DNA of 32,979 nucleotides. Source: an uncultured Bacteroidota bacterium (GTDB taxonomy: Bacteria > Bacteroidota > Bacteroidia > Flavobacteriales_D > Crocinitomicaceae). The stretch is taken from the NCBI GenBank assembly GCA_937899625.1, contig CALCCB010000077.1:1-32979 (forward strand), given 5' to 3'. The notes beneath the pieces were generated by a model. The model worked only from the letters and a program-made list of their open reading frames with translations, had not been told where the DNA came from and ran no database searches. Every line of letters begins with the position of its first letter. Within the stretch, counting starts at the first letter, position 1. Position numbers and translations under genes: made by a program. This document shows positions 7,711-32,979 of this stretch, one piece after another.

Positions 7711-10176
7711 TTATTTCGATATCATCACTCTCCTAATCTCGTTGAAATTTGGCGTAATGAATTTAAGAATGTATGGCCCATTGCTTAGGGTCGGAACGTT
7801 CCATGTATAAGAATTTTTTCCAGCTTTACAATATCCAATGGACACATCGAGAACTTCTGCGCCCAACAAATCAAATAATTTAATCTCAACGTTAGCGTCT
7901 GAATTTAAAACAAATTCAATAGTAGCTATATTATCGAAAGGGTTAGGGAATATTCCTAGCAAAAGATCCGAGTTGATCGATTCTGTTTCGATTAAATTTT
8001 TTGCACTATAGCCTCCTTCACAGCCAACATTCACTGTGTTATCATTAGAATTATAGGTCATTCCAGTGACTGAAACATTTGTAACTTGAAAACACCAATC
8101 ACCGGAAGGGTTTTTCTTTGGACTAGTTCCTAGAACTGCAAAACCATCTGATCCAGTAGTTGAATTTGTGCTACCTGAATTAGGTCCAGAATAACTGCAC
8201 GTAACGGTGGCATTAGGTATTGCATTTCCGAATTGATCCGTTACAAGAATCGATGCGACTCCTCGTGCTCTGCCTGCATTCAAATTCTCTCTGGAAACAA
8301 TAATTTCTTCCACATGAGCGGCTGGAGAACCTCCAGGATTGTCAGGATTAGTTGTTGCAGAACCTTGCGAATATGATGACGTACCTACAGCATTATATGA
8401 ATAAATACGATAATAATAGGTCGTTGCTGGAGAAAGACCTTGATCTGAATATGAAGTGGTATTAGCAGAAAGATTTGCTTCAAAACTGAAATTTAGTCCA
8501 TCCAAGGAACTCTCAATGGTAAAGCCATCTTCGTTGTCTGAATTATCGATCCATGTTAAATCAATACTTGATGTAGAAAGTGAAGTAGCATTTAATGAAG
8601 ATGGCGCTGCAGGAAGTGTTGGAGGTGGTGGCGGTGGTGCATCCAAGACATAATACTCTGTATAAGGAGACGTGAGATTTCCATCTGATGGATAGGTAGG
8701 AGCGCTAATACCACCTGTCACATTCATCCATCCCATTGCACCTCTATCTTCATGACCTAAAATGTGGCAATGCATAATAGTCCTTCCAGCGTAAACAGAG
8801 GATGTGTTTTGATTTAGATCAAACCGAATTGGAACATTTGTAGAAACCACATCATAGTACTCACCTTCTTCAAACATTCCATTTGTTGATTGAGCTTGTA
8901 CATGATAAACGTGTAAATGAAAAGGATGCATTGTAGCTCCAGACAGACTCCATTGCTGAACTTGGTTCGGAGGCAAAGTTATATTTGCCATCATGTGGTC
9001 GTATTTAGTGCCATTTATTGTTCTTGCACCCATATTTATTGTTTCAGTATGAACATTCACTTCATTTCTCAAATCACGCAAATAAGAGGGACGAGTTGCT
9101 GACCACATAGAAATTCCGTCGGAAGCAAAAGGATGAGGAGATGCATTCTGAGTTCCACCGACTGTAATATTTGCCACAATTGCACCGTCAACTTTGATCC
9201 AAGAATTAGAATTGGTTCGAATGGCAAAATCCGCTCTGGAAGCTCCTGTTAATCCAATCATATTTGACGCTAAATCCATTGGAGCCATTGTTCTCCAAAC
9301 ACCGTCTCTAGCTAAAAGCATAACTTCACATTCTGGACCGAAGGACAAATCTTTCATCATTGCATCTCTGTCTGCTAATAATACTCGCCAATGTTGCCAA
9401 GTACCAGAAGGAATGCAAATGTCACCTCCAATTTTACCATTAACTGTCCATGTTGGATTTAATGTTCCCCCCATTAAAACATCACCTCCAGTGCCGCTAG
9501 CACCTCTATCCAAAAATCCTATTACCAACTCTTTTTCTTCCATTGACGCTACAGAAGCAGGAATATTGTCTTGACTATCATCGACAACTATCATCCCGAA
9601 CAATCCTCCGGAAACCTGTAAAAAAGACGATCCATGATGATGTGCATGGTACCAATATGTCCCTCCCATGTGATCGGCGGGGATATCCCAAACAAAATCT
9701 CCACCAGTACCACCTTCGAAAGTTCGTTCTACATCATCCCCTGGTGACTCCCCGCTAATATGAAGACCATGCGTATGTATATTGCTTGCATTGGGATCTT
9801 TGAACACATTGTGACTGGTACTTAATGGTTCGTAAGGAAGTAAATTGTGAAATCTCATGATGTACTTATTTCCCGGAATTAAATGAATTGTTGGTCCGGG
9901 AATGGAATAGTTTCCTCCTTCTTGACGGTATGCACGAGTTGTAAACGTGTTCCCATTAAAAATAAAAGTTTCCTGACCCACCTCTATTGTTCCCGAATAG
10001 TATGCTTCAGGGTTATTATCAGATACTGGATGATAAGTCCAATTGAAAGCTTCAGGATTCGATATAGGATTGCTTGAGTTGCATTGGGCCTTAAGCGAAT
10101 TTTGGATTAGCAGAACTATTCCCAACAAAAGTATTGTTAATTTTCTGTTGATTGAATTGAAATAAAATGATAGCAT
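7711..10176 (-). CDS. secreted multicopper oxidase with fibronectin III domain and T9SS sorting tail
   Basis: This 821-residue protein has a signal peptide (about residues 1-31, ending NSLKAQ). All four copper motifs are present: HTHG (134-137), HAHHHG (177-182), HPFHLH (417-422) and HCHILGHEDRGAM (469-481, including an axial Met). They supply the type 1 site and the trinuclear type 2/3 cluster, so a laccase-like oxidase that reduces O2 is expected. A proline-rich linker (DAPPPPPPTLP) leads to an Fn3 domain (about 520-610), an Ig-like segment with paired Cys, and a T9SS tail starting IFPNPFDN and ending RRVMISK. The last feature implies export across the outer membrane by T9SS. The substrate (phenolics, metal ions or bilirubin-like compounds) cannot be told. 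The gene is 137 nt downstream of a DUF4476 gene on the same strand. Confidence 0.93.
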   Translation of the reverse strand: MLSFYFNSINRKLTILLLGIVLLIQNSLKAQCNSSNPISNPEAFNWTYHPVSDNNPEAYYSGTIEVGQETFIFNGNTFTTRAYRQEGGNYSIPGPTIHLIPGNKYIMRFHNLLPYEPLSTSHNVFKDPNASNIHTHGLHISGESPGDDVERTFEGGTGGDFVWDIPADHMGGTYWYHAHHHGSSFLQVSGGLFGMIVVDDSQDNIPASVASMEEKELVIGFLDRGASGTGGDVLMGGTLNPTWTVNGKIGGDICIPSGTWQHWRVLLADRDAMMKDLSFGPECEVMLLARDGVWRTMAPMDLASNMIGLTGASRADFAIRTNSNSWIKVDGAIVANITVGGTQNASPHPFASDGISMWSATRPSYLRDLRNEVNVHTETINMGARTINGTKYDHMMANITLPPNQVQQWSLSGATMHPFHLHVYHVQAQSTNGMFEEGEYYDVVSTNVPIRFDLNQNTSSVYAGRTIMHCHILGHEDRGAMGWMNVTGGISAPTYPSDGNLTSPYTEYYVLDAPPPPPPTLPAAPSSLNATSLSTSSIDLTWIDNSDNEDGFTIESSLDGLNFSFEANLSANTTSYSDQGLSPATTYYYRIYSYNAVGTSSYSQGSATTNPDNPGGSPAAHVEEIIVSRENLNAGRARGVASILVTDQFGNAIPNATVTCSYSGPNSGSTNSTTGSDGFAVLGTSPKKNPSGDWCFQVTNVSVTGMTYNSNDNTVNVGCEGGYSAKNLIETESINSDLLLGIFPNPFDNIATIEFVLNSDANVEIKLFDLLGAEVLDVSIGYCKAGKNSYTWNVPTLSNGPYILKFITPNFNEIRRVMISK

Positions 10177-30252: not shown

Positions 30253-30692
30253 GTCTCGTTGTTAAAGAATTAAAGACCCTTGAGGAAATGCTCGAGCATA
30301 TTGATGTTTTGAATGAGCTCTATCCAACCCTCACAATGGATGAATACATAAAGGATCTCACCGATATGCTCCCCCACAATTATGGTCAGGTGGCGGTCTT
30401 TGAAGATGGAGTATGTCTGGGCCTCAGTGGTTTCTGGATAGGTAAAAAACTATGGTGCGGAAAGTACCTTGAACTAGACAATATTATTGTAAGATCAGCT
30501 GCAAGATCCAAAGGTATTGGTCAGATCATCTTTGATCATTTGTCTCAAAAGGCCAAGGAAAACGATTGCAATATGATGGCCCTCGACAGTTACACAACCA
30601 ATTATAAAGCGCATAAATTTTTCTACAACAATGAATTCGCGCCAAAAGGATTTCATTTTATTCGAATTCTGAAAAAAGATCAGATCCGTTAA
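30249..30692 (+). CDS. GNAT family N-acetyltransferase
   Basis: This 147-residue protein has the GNAT fold: the strand YLELDNIIVRSAARSKGIGQ holds the acetyl-CoA motif R-S-K-G-I-G (R/Q-x-x-G-x-G/A), followed by helix IIFDHLSQKAKENDCN, strand MMALDSYTTN and the C-terminal FFYNNEFAPKGFHFIRILKK. It should transfer an acetyl group to an amine; the substrate is unknown. It starts within the peptidase stop (ATGA), so translation is probably coupled. Its TAA stop shares bases with the TAA of the converging DtxR-type gene (30689-30692). Confidence 0.87.
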   Translation: MSLVVKELKTLEEMLEHIDVLNELYPTLTMDEYIKDLTDMLPHNYGQVAVFEDGVCLGLSGFWIGKKLWCGKYLELDNIIVRSAARSKGIGQIIFDHLSQKAKENDCNMMALDSYTTNYKAHKFFYNNEFAPKGFHFIRILKKDQIR

Positions 30693-31396
30693 AAAGAACA
30701 GTCGTTTTTGGAACAATCCTTACCCAATTTACAGGTAGGACAAACGACATGAATATTCATGCAGAATTTATCAGAAACGGTATGGTCCTTATTTTCTACC
30801 CGTAAGGTTGTTTGACCATCATAGGATTCTCTTCCTGCAACCTCGATCATTCCACCTATTCGTACTCCTATTTTGTCTGCGTATTGAAGAAAAGAATTTG
30901 AATTATCCTTCACGGAAACCACCTTTCCGCTCTTACCGATCGAAACTTCGCTTAATAACCGCTGATATGGAATCAGAATTCTACCTTCTCTATCCGGAAT
31001 TGCATCTCCGTGTGGATCAAATTTGGGATTCTGCAGAAAGTCATCCAGACTATTGACTAATTTTTTTGACTTGATATGTTCCAGCTGTTCAGCTACTTCA
31101 TGCACTTCATCCCATGCGAAATCCAATTTTTCGACAAGAAACGTCTCCCACAGCCGGTGCTTTCTCACCACATCCATCCCCGCTTTTTGACCCTCTACTG
31201 TAAGACTAATCTTACCATACTTCACATAGCTCACAAGTGACTTTTCCCTCAACTTTTTTAGCATGTCATTTGCCGTCGCCGGCTTAACATTCAAATACAA
31301 AGCAAGTTCATTGGTACCTACTTCATTTCCCTGATCCCTAAAGTGAATTAGTTGGACTAGAGCCTTCAGATAATTTTCCTCTGCCTGTGAGAACAT
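30689..31396 (-). CDS. DtxR/MntR-type metal-dependent transcriptional regulator
   Basis: The protein has about 235 residues. The N-terminal winged helix opens MFSQAEENYLKALVQLIHF and continues with VGTNELALYLNVKPATANDM and LTVEGQKAGMDVVRKHRLWE, which matches DtxR/MntR. A dimerisation and metal-binding segment follows: FAWDEVHEVAEQLEHI and PKFDPHGDAIPDREG, with the conserved acidic and His ligands. A C-terminal FeoA/SH3-like domain comes after it (about 150-215). The extreme C-terminus is a Cys-rich tail, C-x2-C-x5-C-x4-C, not typical of the family. Iron or manganese is the likely signal; which one is unclear. The frame can be read from a TTG at 31402, but the ATG at 31396 is the family start. 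It is divergent from a TonB-dependent receptor, with a palindrome in between. Confidence 0.9.
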   Translation of the reverse strand: MFSQAEENYLKALVQLIHFRDQGNEVGTNELALYLNVKPATANDMLKKLREKSLVSYVKYGKISLTVEGQKAGMDVVRKHRLWETFLVEKLDFAWDEVHEVAEQLEHIKSKKLVNSLDDFLQNPKFDPHGDAIPDREGRILIPYQRLLSEVSIGKSGKVVSVKDNSNSFLQYADKIGVRIGGMIEVAGRESYDGQTTLRVENKDHTVSDKFCMNIHVVCPTCKLGKDCSKNDCSF

Positions 31397-31399
31397 ATT

Positions 31400-31407
31400 C
31401 AAAGGTA
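31400..31407 (-). promoter_or_regulatory. candidate -7 box of the DtxR-type gene
   Basis: On the minus strand TACCTTTG is a TAnnTTTG match ending 3 nt before the ATG at 31396, giving a nearly leaderless transcript. No TTG sits at the ideal distance; the DtxR-like palindrome lies 23 nt upstream. Confidence 0.35.
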
Positions 31408-31428
31408 TAGAAAAGTTTGAAACATTTT

Positions 31429-31459
31429 TTGTTAGGTCTACCTAACTTTATTATTTTTA
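31429..31459 (+). promoter_or_regulatory. promoter of the TonB-dependent receptor
   Basis: TTG (31429-31431), 20 nt and TATTTTTA (31452-31459) match the Bacteroidetes consensus except for the last base. The box ends 13 nt before the ATG at 31473. Its spacer contains the palindrome at 31431-31446, so a bound repressor would block the promoter. Confidence 0.6.
31431..31446. promoter_or_regulatory. candidate operator of the DtxR-type regulator
   Basis: GTTAGGT-CT-ACCTAAC is a perfect palindrome with 7-bp arms. The half-site TTAGGT matches the DtxR half-site core (TTAGGTTAG...CTAACCTAA is the known DtxR consensus), here in a shorter form. It lies between the divergent DtxR-type gene and the TonB receptor and overlaps the receptor promoter. 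Binding by this regulator is inferred. Confidence 0.65.
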
Positions 31460-31472
31460 CACTCCAAACTAT

Positions 31473-32979
31473 ATGAAATACTTCCTTCAACTCATTTTAG
31501 TACTGTCCTGTTTCGTTTCAACAGGTCAAAATGAATTTACTTTTTATATCAAAGGATCTATAGGCCCAATTGAAGGAGCAACCATTCAAATAAAAGGTAA
31601 AAGTGAGATCTACTATTCGGATGCATCAGGTAAAATAAGCATACTAACAAGCACTGACAGCATACAATTCAGAGTTTATTTTTTTGGATACAAGCGACAA
31701 GACCACCTTATTTCTACAAAAGAGAAAAAGGAAATGACTCTATTTTTGACTCCCGAACTTCAAGAGATGGAAGAGGTAGTGATCAGTGGAACCTTGAATG
31801 AAATAAGTCGCTTAAAAACCTTAACTCCCATTGAAGTTTACAATAACTCCTTCATTGAAAAATCGAGGTCTCCTACAATTTTTGAGGCTCTTGGAAAAAT
31901 TAGTGGTATTCGACCTCAGGTTAATTGTAATATCTGTAATACTGGAGATATACACATCAATGGTTTAGAAGGTCCATACACTATGATCCTGATCAACGGC
32001 ATGCCGATTGTTGGTAGTCTTTCAAGCGTATATGGATTGCAAGGAATTCCGAATGGAATGATCGAAAGAATCGAAGTCATTCGAGGACCTTCTTCTGTTC
32101 TATACGGTAGTGAAGCTATCGGAGGTATTATCAACGTGATCACAAAAACTTCGTTACCCGGAAATAGAGTTTACGTTGAATCTTTCCTTTCTAGTATGCT
32201 TGAGAGCAATACTGACCTCGGGATACAATATGGAAAGAAAAAAAATGCGCTGTTGGGCCTGAATATTTTCCATTATAATTTTCCGATCGATCAGAACAAT
32301 GACGGTTTCACAGACCTGTCTATTCAAAAAAGAATTTCACTTTTTCAATCCTTTAATTTTCAAAAGGTCAAGTTGATGGCACGATATGCCTACGAAGATC
32401 GTTGGGGAGGGCAAATGAACTGGACTCCAGAATTTCGGGGCGGCGACTCTATCTATGGTGAAAGCATTTACACCAGTCGTTTCGAATTGATTGGTCAGTA
32501 TAAAATTTCGACTAAATTCAACTATCAACTTTCATACACCGATCATTCTCAAGACAGTTACTACGGTACAAATCCCTTTAAAGCGAATCAAAGGGTATTT
32601 TTCAATCAACTTGTGCATCATCTGAAAGTTGGAAAGCTTTCTTCGGTTTCAGGCGTTACTGCCCGAGTAACGTATTACAACGATGGAACAGTAGCGACCA
32701 GTGAAGAAATGGGATATCAACCAATCACTTTGCTTCCAGGCATATTTTCTCAAGGTGAAATTTCATTGAAAGAAAAGACCGCCCTTTTATTAGGCGCTCG
32801 AATTGATCATTCAAATATACATGGCATTATATTCTCACCACGTGCTGGATTCAAGTACGACATCAGCAGATTTCACTTATTGAGACTGAACGCCGGAACG
32901 GGATACCGAGTGGTAAATGTATTCTCGGAAGACCATGCTGCACTAACTGGTGCACGAACAACAATAATTGAAGGAGATA
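31473..32979 (+). CDS. TonB-dependent outer-membrane receptor, C-terminus missing
   Basis: The frame is open from an ATG at 31473 to the right edge (about 502 codons). A signal peptide (MKYFLQLILVLSCFVSTGQ) is followed by a carboxypeptidase-regulatory-like beta domain (about 20-100, FYIKGSIGPIEGATIQIKGK) and a TonB plug. The plug contains VNCNICNTGDIHINGLEG, the segment TMILINGMPIVG, and the signature IERIEVIRGPSSVLYGSEAI followed by GGIINVITK. Beta-barrel strands follow up to the edge. Such receptors use TonB-ExbBD energy to import siderophores, metal complexes or other ligands. A Cys pair (C-x2-C) lies in the plug loop. The DtxR-like operator in its promoter suggests a metal-linked ligand, but the ligand is not known. 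Confidence 0.92.
   Translation, partial: MKYFLQLILVLSCFVSTGQNEFTFYIKGSIGPIEGATIQIKGKSEIYYSDASGKISILTSTDSIQFRVYFFGYKRQDHLISTKEKKEMTLFLTPELQEMEEVVISGTLNEISRLKTLTPIEVYNNSFIEKSRSPTIFEALGKISGIRPQVNCNICNTGDIHINGLEGPYTMILINGMPIVGSLSSVYGLQGIPNGMIERIEVIRGPSSVLYGSEAIGGIINVITKTSLPGNRVYVESFLSSMLESNTDLGIQYGKKKNALLGLNIFHYNFPIDQNNDGFTDLSIQKRISLFQSFNFQKVKLMARYAYEDRWGGQMNWTPEFRGGDSIYGESIYTSRFELIGQYKISTKFNYQLSYTDHSQDSYYGTNPFKANQRVFFNQLVHHLKVGKLSSVSGVTARVTYYNDGTVATSEEMGYQPITLLPGIFSQGEISLKEKTALLLGARIDHSNIHGIIFSPRAGFKYDISRFHLLRLNAGTGYRVVNVFSEDHAALTGARTTIIEGD

Follow-up and report, generated by a model that had tools for sequence, protein, structure and literature searches.

The DtxR/IdeR operator of Actinomycetota has the form TTAGGTTAG-S-CTAACCTAA. 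The regulator described here resembles DtxR and IdeR in protein family and domain plan, but the spacing and half-site of its putative operator differ, so that it is not a 19-bp TTAGGT-type operator, its primary metal site has Glu in place of Cys, and its predicted targets are of the manganese type. With Bacillus subtilis MntR and the streptococcal ScaR and SloR it shares, by alignment, Glu/Glu/His metal ligands, and these proteins likewise control Nramp or ABC manganese importers. It departs from B. subtilis MntR in having Asn at the place of Asp8 and Lys at that of Glu11, and from all three in its operator and in the outer-membrane receptor that the system would control.

Within the Bacteroidota, PgMntR of Porphyromonas gingivalis is, according to the text of the paper on it (PMC4805248), also a DtxR-family regulator with FeoA domain(s); it belongs to an autoregulated unit with a metal transporter, and Mn(II) strengthens its DNA binding. 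The same text reports that it binds the promoter of the manganese transporter FB2 better with manganese and that the promoter of the iron transporter FB1 is not bound; FB2, a FeoB protein, is given there as the only known manganese transporter of the species (PMC4805248). PgMntR has two FeoA domains, Asp19 and Cys108 (PMC4805248), whereas the protein described here has one FeoA domain, Asn8 and Glu103, and a term search of that paper's text found neither an operator motif nor a TonB receptor. In Stenotrophomonas maltophilia, a 2026 paper (PMC13217887) describes an MntR-controlled TonB receptor with CQNC in its plug, encoded beside a thioredoxin-fold protein. The likeness to the present locus lies in a TonB receptor under an MntR and bearing a plug CxxC; this is however another phylum, the present receptor has CNIC, and the words 'Bacteroid' and 'Flavobacter' are absent from the main text of that paper (PMC13217887). 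In the open-access literature, we found no description of the operator reported below or of a Bacteroidota manganese receptor.

Layout of the locus

The window, that is the whole stretch of 32,979 nucleotides that was analysed, is one entire contig (C77) of a draft genome of 2.93 Mb in 171 contigs. Towards its end, a regulator gene and a receptor gene diverge from a short spacer, and the perfect palindrome that the first-pass annotation had reported there was confirmed on the sequence. The features are as follows.

30689..31396, minus strand: DtxR/MntR-family regulator, 235 aa from its ATG (ORF list; Pfam PF01325, PF02742, PF04023)
31397..31472, unstranded: divergent spacer of 76 nt, between the regulator ATG at 31396 (minus) and the receptor ATG at 31473 (plus)
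31400..31407, minus strand: -7-like element of the regulator, TACCTTTG, abutting the regulator start (promoter element predicted from sequence)
31429..31431, plus strand: -33-like TTG of the putative receptor promoter (of 24 G-type sites next to a divergent receptor, 17 have TTG at their edge)
31431..31446, unstranded: putative operator, perfect 16-nt palindrome GTTAGGTCTACCTAAC (sequence; conservation of KTTAGN6CTAAM)
31452..31459, plus strand: -7-like element of the putative receptor promoter, TATTTTTA (exact TAnnTTTG 20 nt after TTG in 14 of 24 such sites)
31473..32978, plus strand: TonB-dependent receptor, first 502 aa, the gene being cut by the contig end (PF13715, PF07715, PF00593)
31926..31937, plus strand: codons for CNIC of the receptor plug, residues 152-155 (sole CxxC among the ORFs at 18 plug-domain places of the genome)

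The first G of the palindrome doubles as the G of the TTG at 31429-31431, which is followed after 20 nt by TATTTTTA, one base off TAnnTTTG. On the regulator strand, TTG is absent from the expected -33 place, near which the palindrome sits. In the near-identical genome G125, the receptor frame is open over 750 aa. Elsewhere in the window, positions 7711-10176 encode a protein resembling multicopper oxidases, with a fibronectin domain and a Por secretion tail.

Conservation of the palindrome

Counts in the genome itself were uninformative. In the window, exact TTAGGTN2ACCTAA occurs once, and sites with up to 3 mismatches number 11, for 11.95 expected. Over the whole genome, TTAGGTN2ACCTAA was found twice and GTTAGN6CTAAC three times, compared to 4 and 6 for the reversed controls, and sites with 2 mismatches were 71 against 354. 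These counts not being above the reversed controls, a single genome proves nothing about the motif. The second exact TTAGGTN2ACCTAA, on contig C60, and the third GTTAGN6CTAAC, on C104, were discarded as targets, as both fall inside ORFs, which we take from their sequence to be PurK-like and FolC-like respectively.

Comparison among loci gave a different picture. In most of 30 loci of the same family, with regulators 52-100% identical, GTTAG-N6-CTAAC lies about 43 nt before the regulator. Of 81 Bacteroidota loci (80 named loci plus the window), 60 had KTTAGN6CTAAM no more than 200 nt upstream of the regulator, while 100 dinucleotide shuffles of the same upstream regions gave a mean of 0.15 and at most 2. 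Because the K and M ends had been picked after inspection of the named loci, a second sample was used, consisting of the best 29 regulator loci besides that of the window, from a phylum draw of 296 genomes of which 207 had a match. The motif was found in 14 of these 29 loci, which may overlap the 80 named ones (200 shuffles: mean 0.06, largest 2). The prediction that the palindrome is conserved in related spacers was thus borne out, far above shuffles in both sets. G140, with a 97%-identical regulator, has retained the arms, with a changed centre and different neighbouring DNA.

The consensus reads K-TTAG-R-Y-W-W-R-Y-CTAA-M, with conserved arms and a variable centre. The annotation had taken TTAGGT as a half-site resembling the DtxR core and proposed searching related genomes for TTAGGT-N2-ACCTAA. 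The search did uncover conserved arms upstream of regulators, but the exact TTAGGT form was present in just one of the 81 upstream regions, which rules out TTAGGT as a meaningful half-site; that version also occurs in the near-identical G125 and before a regulator near a split FeoB (L337). As the conserved part is (G/T)TTAG-N6-CTAA(C/A), the likeness of the palindrome to the DtxR box is largely coincidental.

The strict motif was absent from 21 of the 81 and 15 of the 29 regulator upstream regions, some of which carry one-base variants. Upstream of the regulator, 11 of the 15 motif-less loci of the second sample have an Nramp gene, and in three of these (G241, G245 and G276) the site is in front of Nramp. 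We conclude, from its conservation, that the palindrome is a conserved operator, to which the regulator would bind.

Overlap with promoters

Bacteroidota promoters have the form TTG-N20-TAnnTTTG. G-type sites with a divergent receptor numbered 24, that of the window included; in 17 of them TTG stands at the edge, and in 14 TAnnTTTG follows at exactly 20 nt (at 19 nt in one more). The 31 sites without a divergent receptor had an edge TTG in 2 and TAnnTTTG in 2. In the five T-type sites with a receptor, no edge TTG was seen, and TAnnTTTG lay at 23 in 2. Since the pattern tracks divergent receptors, the G of GTTAG belongs in part to the promoter. This agrees with the earlier suggestion that the palindrome lies in the receptor promoter, and given the overlap, a dimer bound there would mask the -33 element and the stretch between the promoter elements.

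In 31 of the 60 sites, the motif adjoins a regulator without a divergent receptor. As the site thus stays with the regulator, autoregulation is the natural reading.

Other genes preceded by the motif

In the window's own genome, a second copy, at C35:1477-1492, stops 9 nt short of the start codon of a ZIP-family transporter gene (PF02535), so that two of the three GTTAGN6CTAAC sites of the genome are the window site and the ZIP site. A search of this genome for Nramp genes found none. The regulator had been proposed to be dedicated to its receptor; it is not, as a ZIP gene elsewhere in the genome has the same site.

Twenty-one genomes, chosen from among the named loci, were then scanned with KTTAGRYWWRYCTAAM, yielding 33 places in 18 genomes, compared to 13 for the reversed control. 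Fourteen were at regulators of the family, 8 of them with a divergent receptor; three were at receptors alone, two at ZIP and two at Nramp genes; of the rest, 8 fell within ORFs and 4 preceded unrelated genes. Counting the regulator places involves some circularity; the seven at receptor, ZIP and Nramp genes are free of it. Among the best 30 Nramp loci of a 148-genome draw, the motif heads Nramp (7) or a regulator-Nramp unit (9) in 16. At locus L295, the site precedes a regulator-headed unit that also encodes ABC-3 permeases and a ZnuA-type binding protein, and at L296 the region of a second family member likewise carries the motif. The annotation's suggestion that the palindrome might be found at other metal genes therefore held, for ZIP, Nramp and receptor genes. 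ZIP, Nramp and ZnuA/ABC-3 transporters may also carry iron or zinc.

Two arrangements were seen on the way. At L295:1431-2708, and at comparable positions elsewhere in the family, an ABC-3 permease is fused C-terminally to a DtxR-like metal-binding domain, giving a transporter that bears its own sensor-like domain. L297:917-4866 is one run of genes, for the regulator, another DtxR-FeoA protein, and a FeoB divided between a GTPase gene and a membrane gene; other genomes show a similar spacing.

Co-occurrence within the genus

Among the 26 genomes of the window's genus, the regulator was found in 6; one weak match (G098, E 8.9e-5) was scored as lacking it. The receptor (E up to 1e-40) was present in 5 of the 6 regulator-bearing genomes and in none of the 20 others, and a ZIP gene in 24 of the 26. 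The ZIP site was detected in 3 of 3 genomes with a regulator of the window type; none of the 3 whose regulator is 58% identical had it, and none of the 18 lacking a regulator. In G146, the ZIP gene is in two pieces, so that its upstream region was poorly read. Receptor and ZIP site therefore occurred in regulator-bearing genomes only, not in all of them: G140 (85% complete) has the regulator and the ZIP site, with no receptor match. The three ZIP sites may represent a single evolutionary gain, since their regulators are 97-100% identical to that of the window.

The regulator and its metal site

The regulator scored above the Pfam cut-offs for PF01325 (helix-turn-helix, 42.6 bits, cut-off 26), PF02742 (metal-binding and dimerisation domain, 99.9 bits, cut-off 27) and PF04023 (C-terminal FeoA domain, 39.3 bits, cut-off 23). 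Its nearest solved chains include 5zr4, ScaR, SloR and MntR. The best NCBIfam MntR/DtxR equivalog, NF047407, gave 142.6 bits, under its curated cut-off of 350.

By our reading of the alignment, Glu103, Glu106 and His107 correspond to Glu99, Glu102 and His103 of B. subtilis MntR (numbering as in the text of PMC4805248). All 29 second-sample regulators retain them, as do 79-80 of the 80 named relatives. Asn8 and Lys11 stand where B. subtilis MntR has Asp8 and Glu11, a departure from the MntR subgroup at these two places. Asn8 is found in 26 of the 29 second-sample regulators (Asp in 3) and in 78 of the 80 named relatives, a set partly seeded with EENYLK. As judged from these residues, the protein belongs to the DtxR/MntR family and has a B. 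subtilis MntR-type site only in part; its metal site is MntR-like rather than DtxR-like, yet a copy of neither.

Beyond the FeoA domain, the regulator ends in a Cys-rich tail (CPTCKLGKDCSKNDC; window 30689-30760). At least 4 Cys in the last 26 residues were counted in 5 of the 80 named relatives and in many loci of the same family. This tail is a possible extra metal or redox site.

The receptor and its plug

Above Pfam cut-offs, the receptor fragment matched CarbopepD_reg_2, the plug and the beginning of the barrel. Among the 18 plug-domain places of the genome (2 of the 18 ORFs being short), it is the sole one with a CxxC. We collected 52 distinct receptors, picked by similarity to that of the window, whose starts lie no more than 160 nt from a site. 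A CxxC was found at the same place of the plug in 48: 31 CNIC, 8 CNVC, 5 CQNC, 2 CGVC and 2 CQTC. The other 4 resemble another receptor class. An earlier count, with both cysteines invariant in 23 receptors, was dropped as evidence, its rows having been chosen by the CxxC pattern. The window receptor aligns with CQNC receptors of other Bacteroidota, the comparison being made among these. At L045, L058, L064 and L132, divergent receptors lack the CxxC and have the plug motif GPNISKPFIHGLGYNRVLTLYDG, with the same operator.

Directly after 7 of 30 CxxC receptors examined (one genome being included twice, as L054 and L324) comes a gene for a secreted WCxxC thioredoxin-like protein. Such genes are found at L050:5142-5624, L102:5115-5588, L096:5193-5696 and L323:1404-1886. 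One of the WCxxC proteins meets the Pfam thioredoxin cut-offs and one falls short; two have no Pfam match, yet align in a chain. In G125, there is no thioredoxin gene within 150 nt after the receptor. For the related L050 receptor, rather than that of the window, a structure model had CirA, FepA and BtuB, ordinary TonB receptors, as its closest folds.

Discussion

Taken from the DNA itself, the conservation and position of the motif, its overlap with the promoter, the genes it precedes and its co-occurrence with the regulator lead us to propose that an MntR-type repressor, most likely responding to Mn(II), probably acts through the palindrome on its own gene, on the receptor and on the ZIP transporter. 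When the metal is plentiful, a metal-loaded dimer of the regulator would bind the palindrome and occlude the receptor promoter at its -33 element and spacer, together with the upstream edge of the regulator promoter, switching off transcription of both genes; repression is the direction of control that we infer. By the second operator copy, before the ZIP start, import across the inner membrane would be shut off as well. When the metal is scarce, receptor and ZIP would be produced together, providing an uptake route through outer and inner membranes.

The same operator and layout could instead serve an iron switch of the DtxR/IdeR kind, with Fe(II)-dependent repression of iron uptake. The FeoA domain of the regulator, the ability of ZIP and Nramp to import Fe(II), and CirA, FepA and BtuB as nearest solved relatives of the receptor would all fit. 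So would the position of the regulator in at least 15 sampled genomes (read by eye), where an FeoB_C gene, in most cases a split FeoB, is within about 3.5 kb of it; the motif heads 3 of these 15 units (L216, L297 and L337) and is absent upstream of the regulator in the other 12. However, the best 30 FeoB_C loci, each covering no more than about 1.5 kb around the domain, contain no motif, and 20 longer upstream regions have none directly before feoB, the one site seen being about 2 kb off and inside another ORF. Moreover, Glu, as in MntR, aligns with DtxR Cys102, and the operator differs from the DtxR 19-mer. Since FB2 of Porphyromonas, a FeoB protein, is called a manganese transporter in the text of that report (PMC4805248), proximity to FeoB is not decisive. 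We consider manganese more likely than iron as the sensed metal, and an iron switch rather unlikely.

Zinc uptake, with ZIP and a cysteine-bearing receptor under a zinc-sensing DtxR-type regulator, seems quite improbable. It would agree with the naming of the ZIP Pfam family for zinc, with CxxC being a usual zinc ligand, and with the 4 site-linked receptors lacking it being of another class by their look; but Nramp genes, for manganese or iron importers, are frequent targets of the motif, and to our knowledge the DtxR-family sensors characterised so far sense manganese or iron. That the palindrome belongs to another transcription factor, or arose by chance, is hardly credible: its being no commoner in the genome than the reversed control and the 21 loci without it could be so explained, but the motif tracks the regulator gene whether the divergent neighbour differs or is missing, and G140 keeps the arms in altered surroundings.

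With the manganese-responsive repressor as the preferred reading, we tentatively extend the proposal to a Bacteroidota manganese regulon marked by KTTAG-N6-CTAAM, which might comprise a redox-gated TonB importer with a CxxC plug, of the kind seen with CQNC in Stenotrophomonas, in some cases a secreted thioredoxin, and ZIP or MntH inside. The passage of manganese across the outer membrane of Gram-negative bacteria is poorly known, and a conserved operator offers a handle by which regulator, receptor and inner transporter can be found together across a major phylum. The CxxC plug, common to an MntR-controlled receptor of another phylum as described in the main text of PMC13217887, would make a class of manganese receptors a testable proposal.
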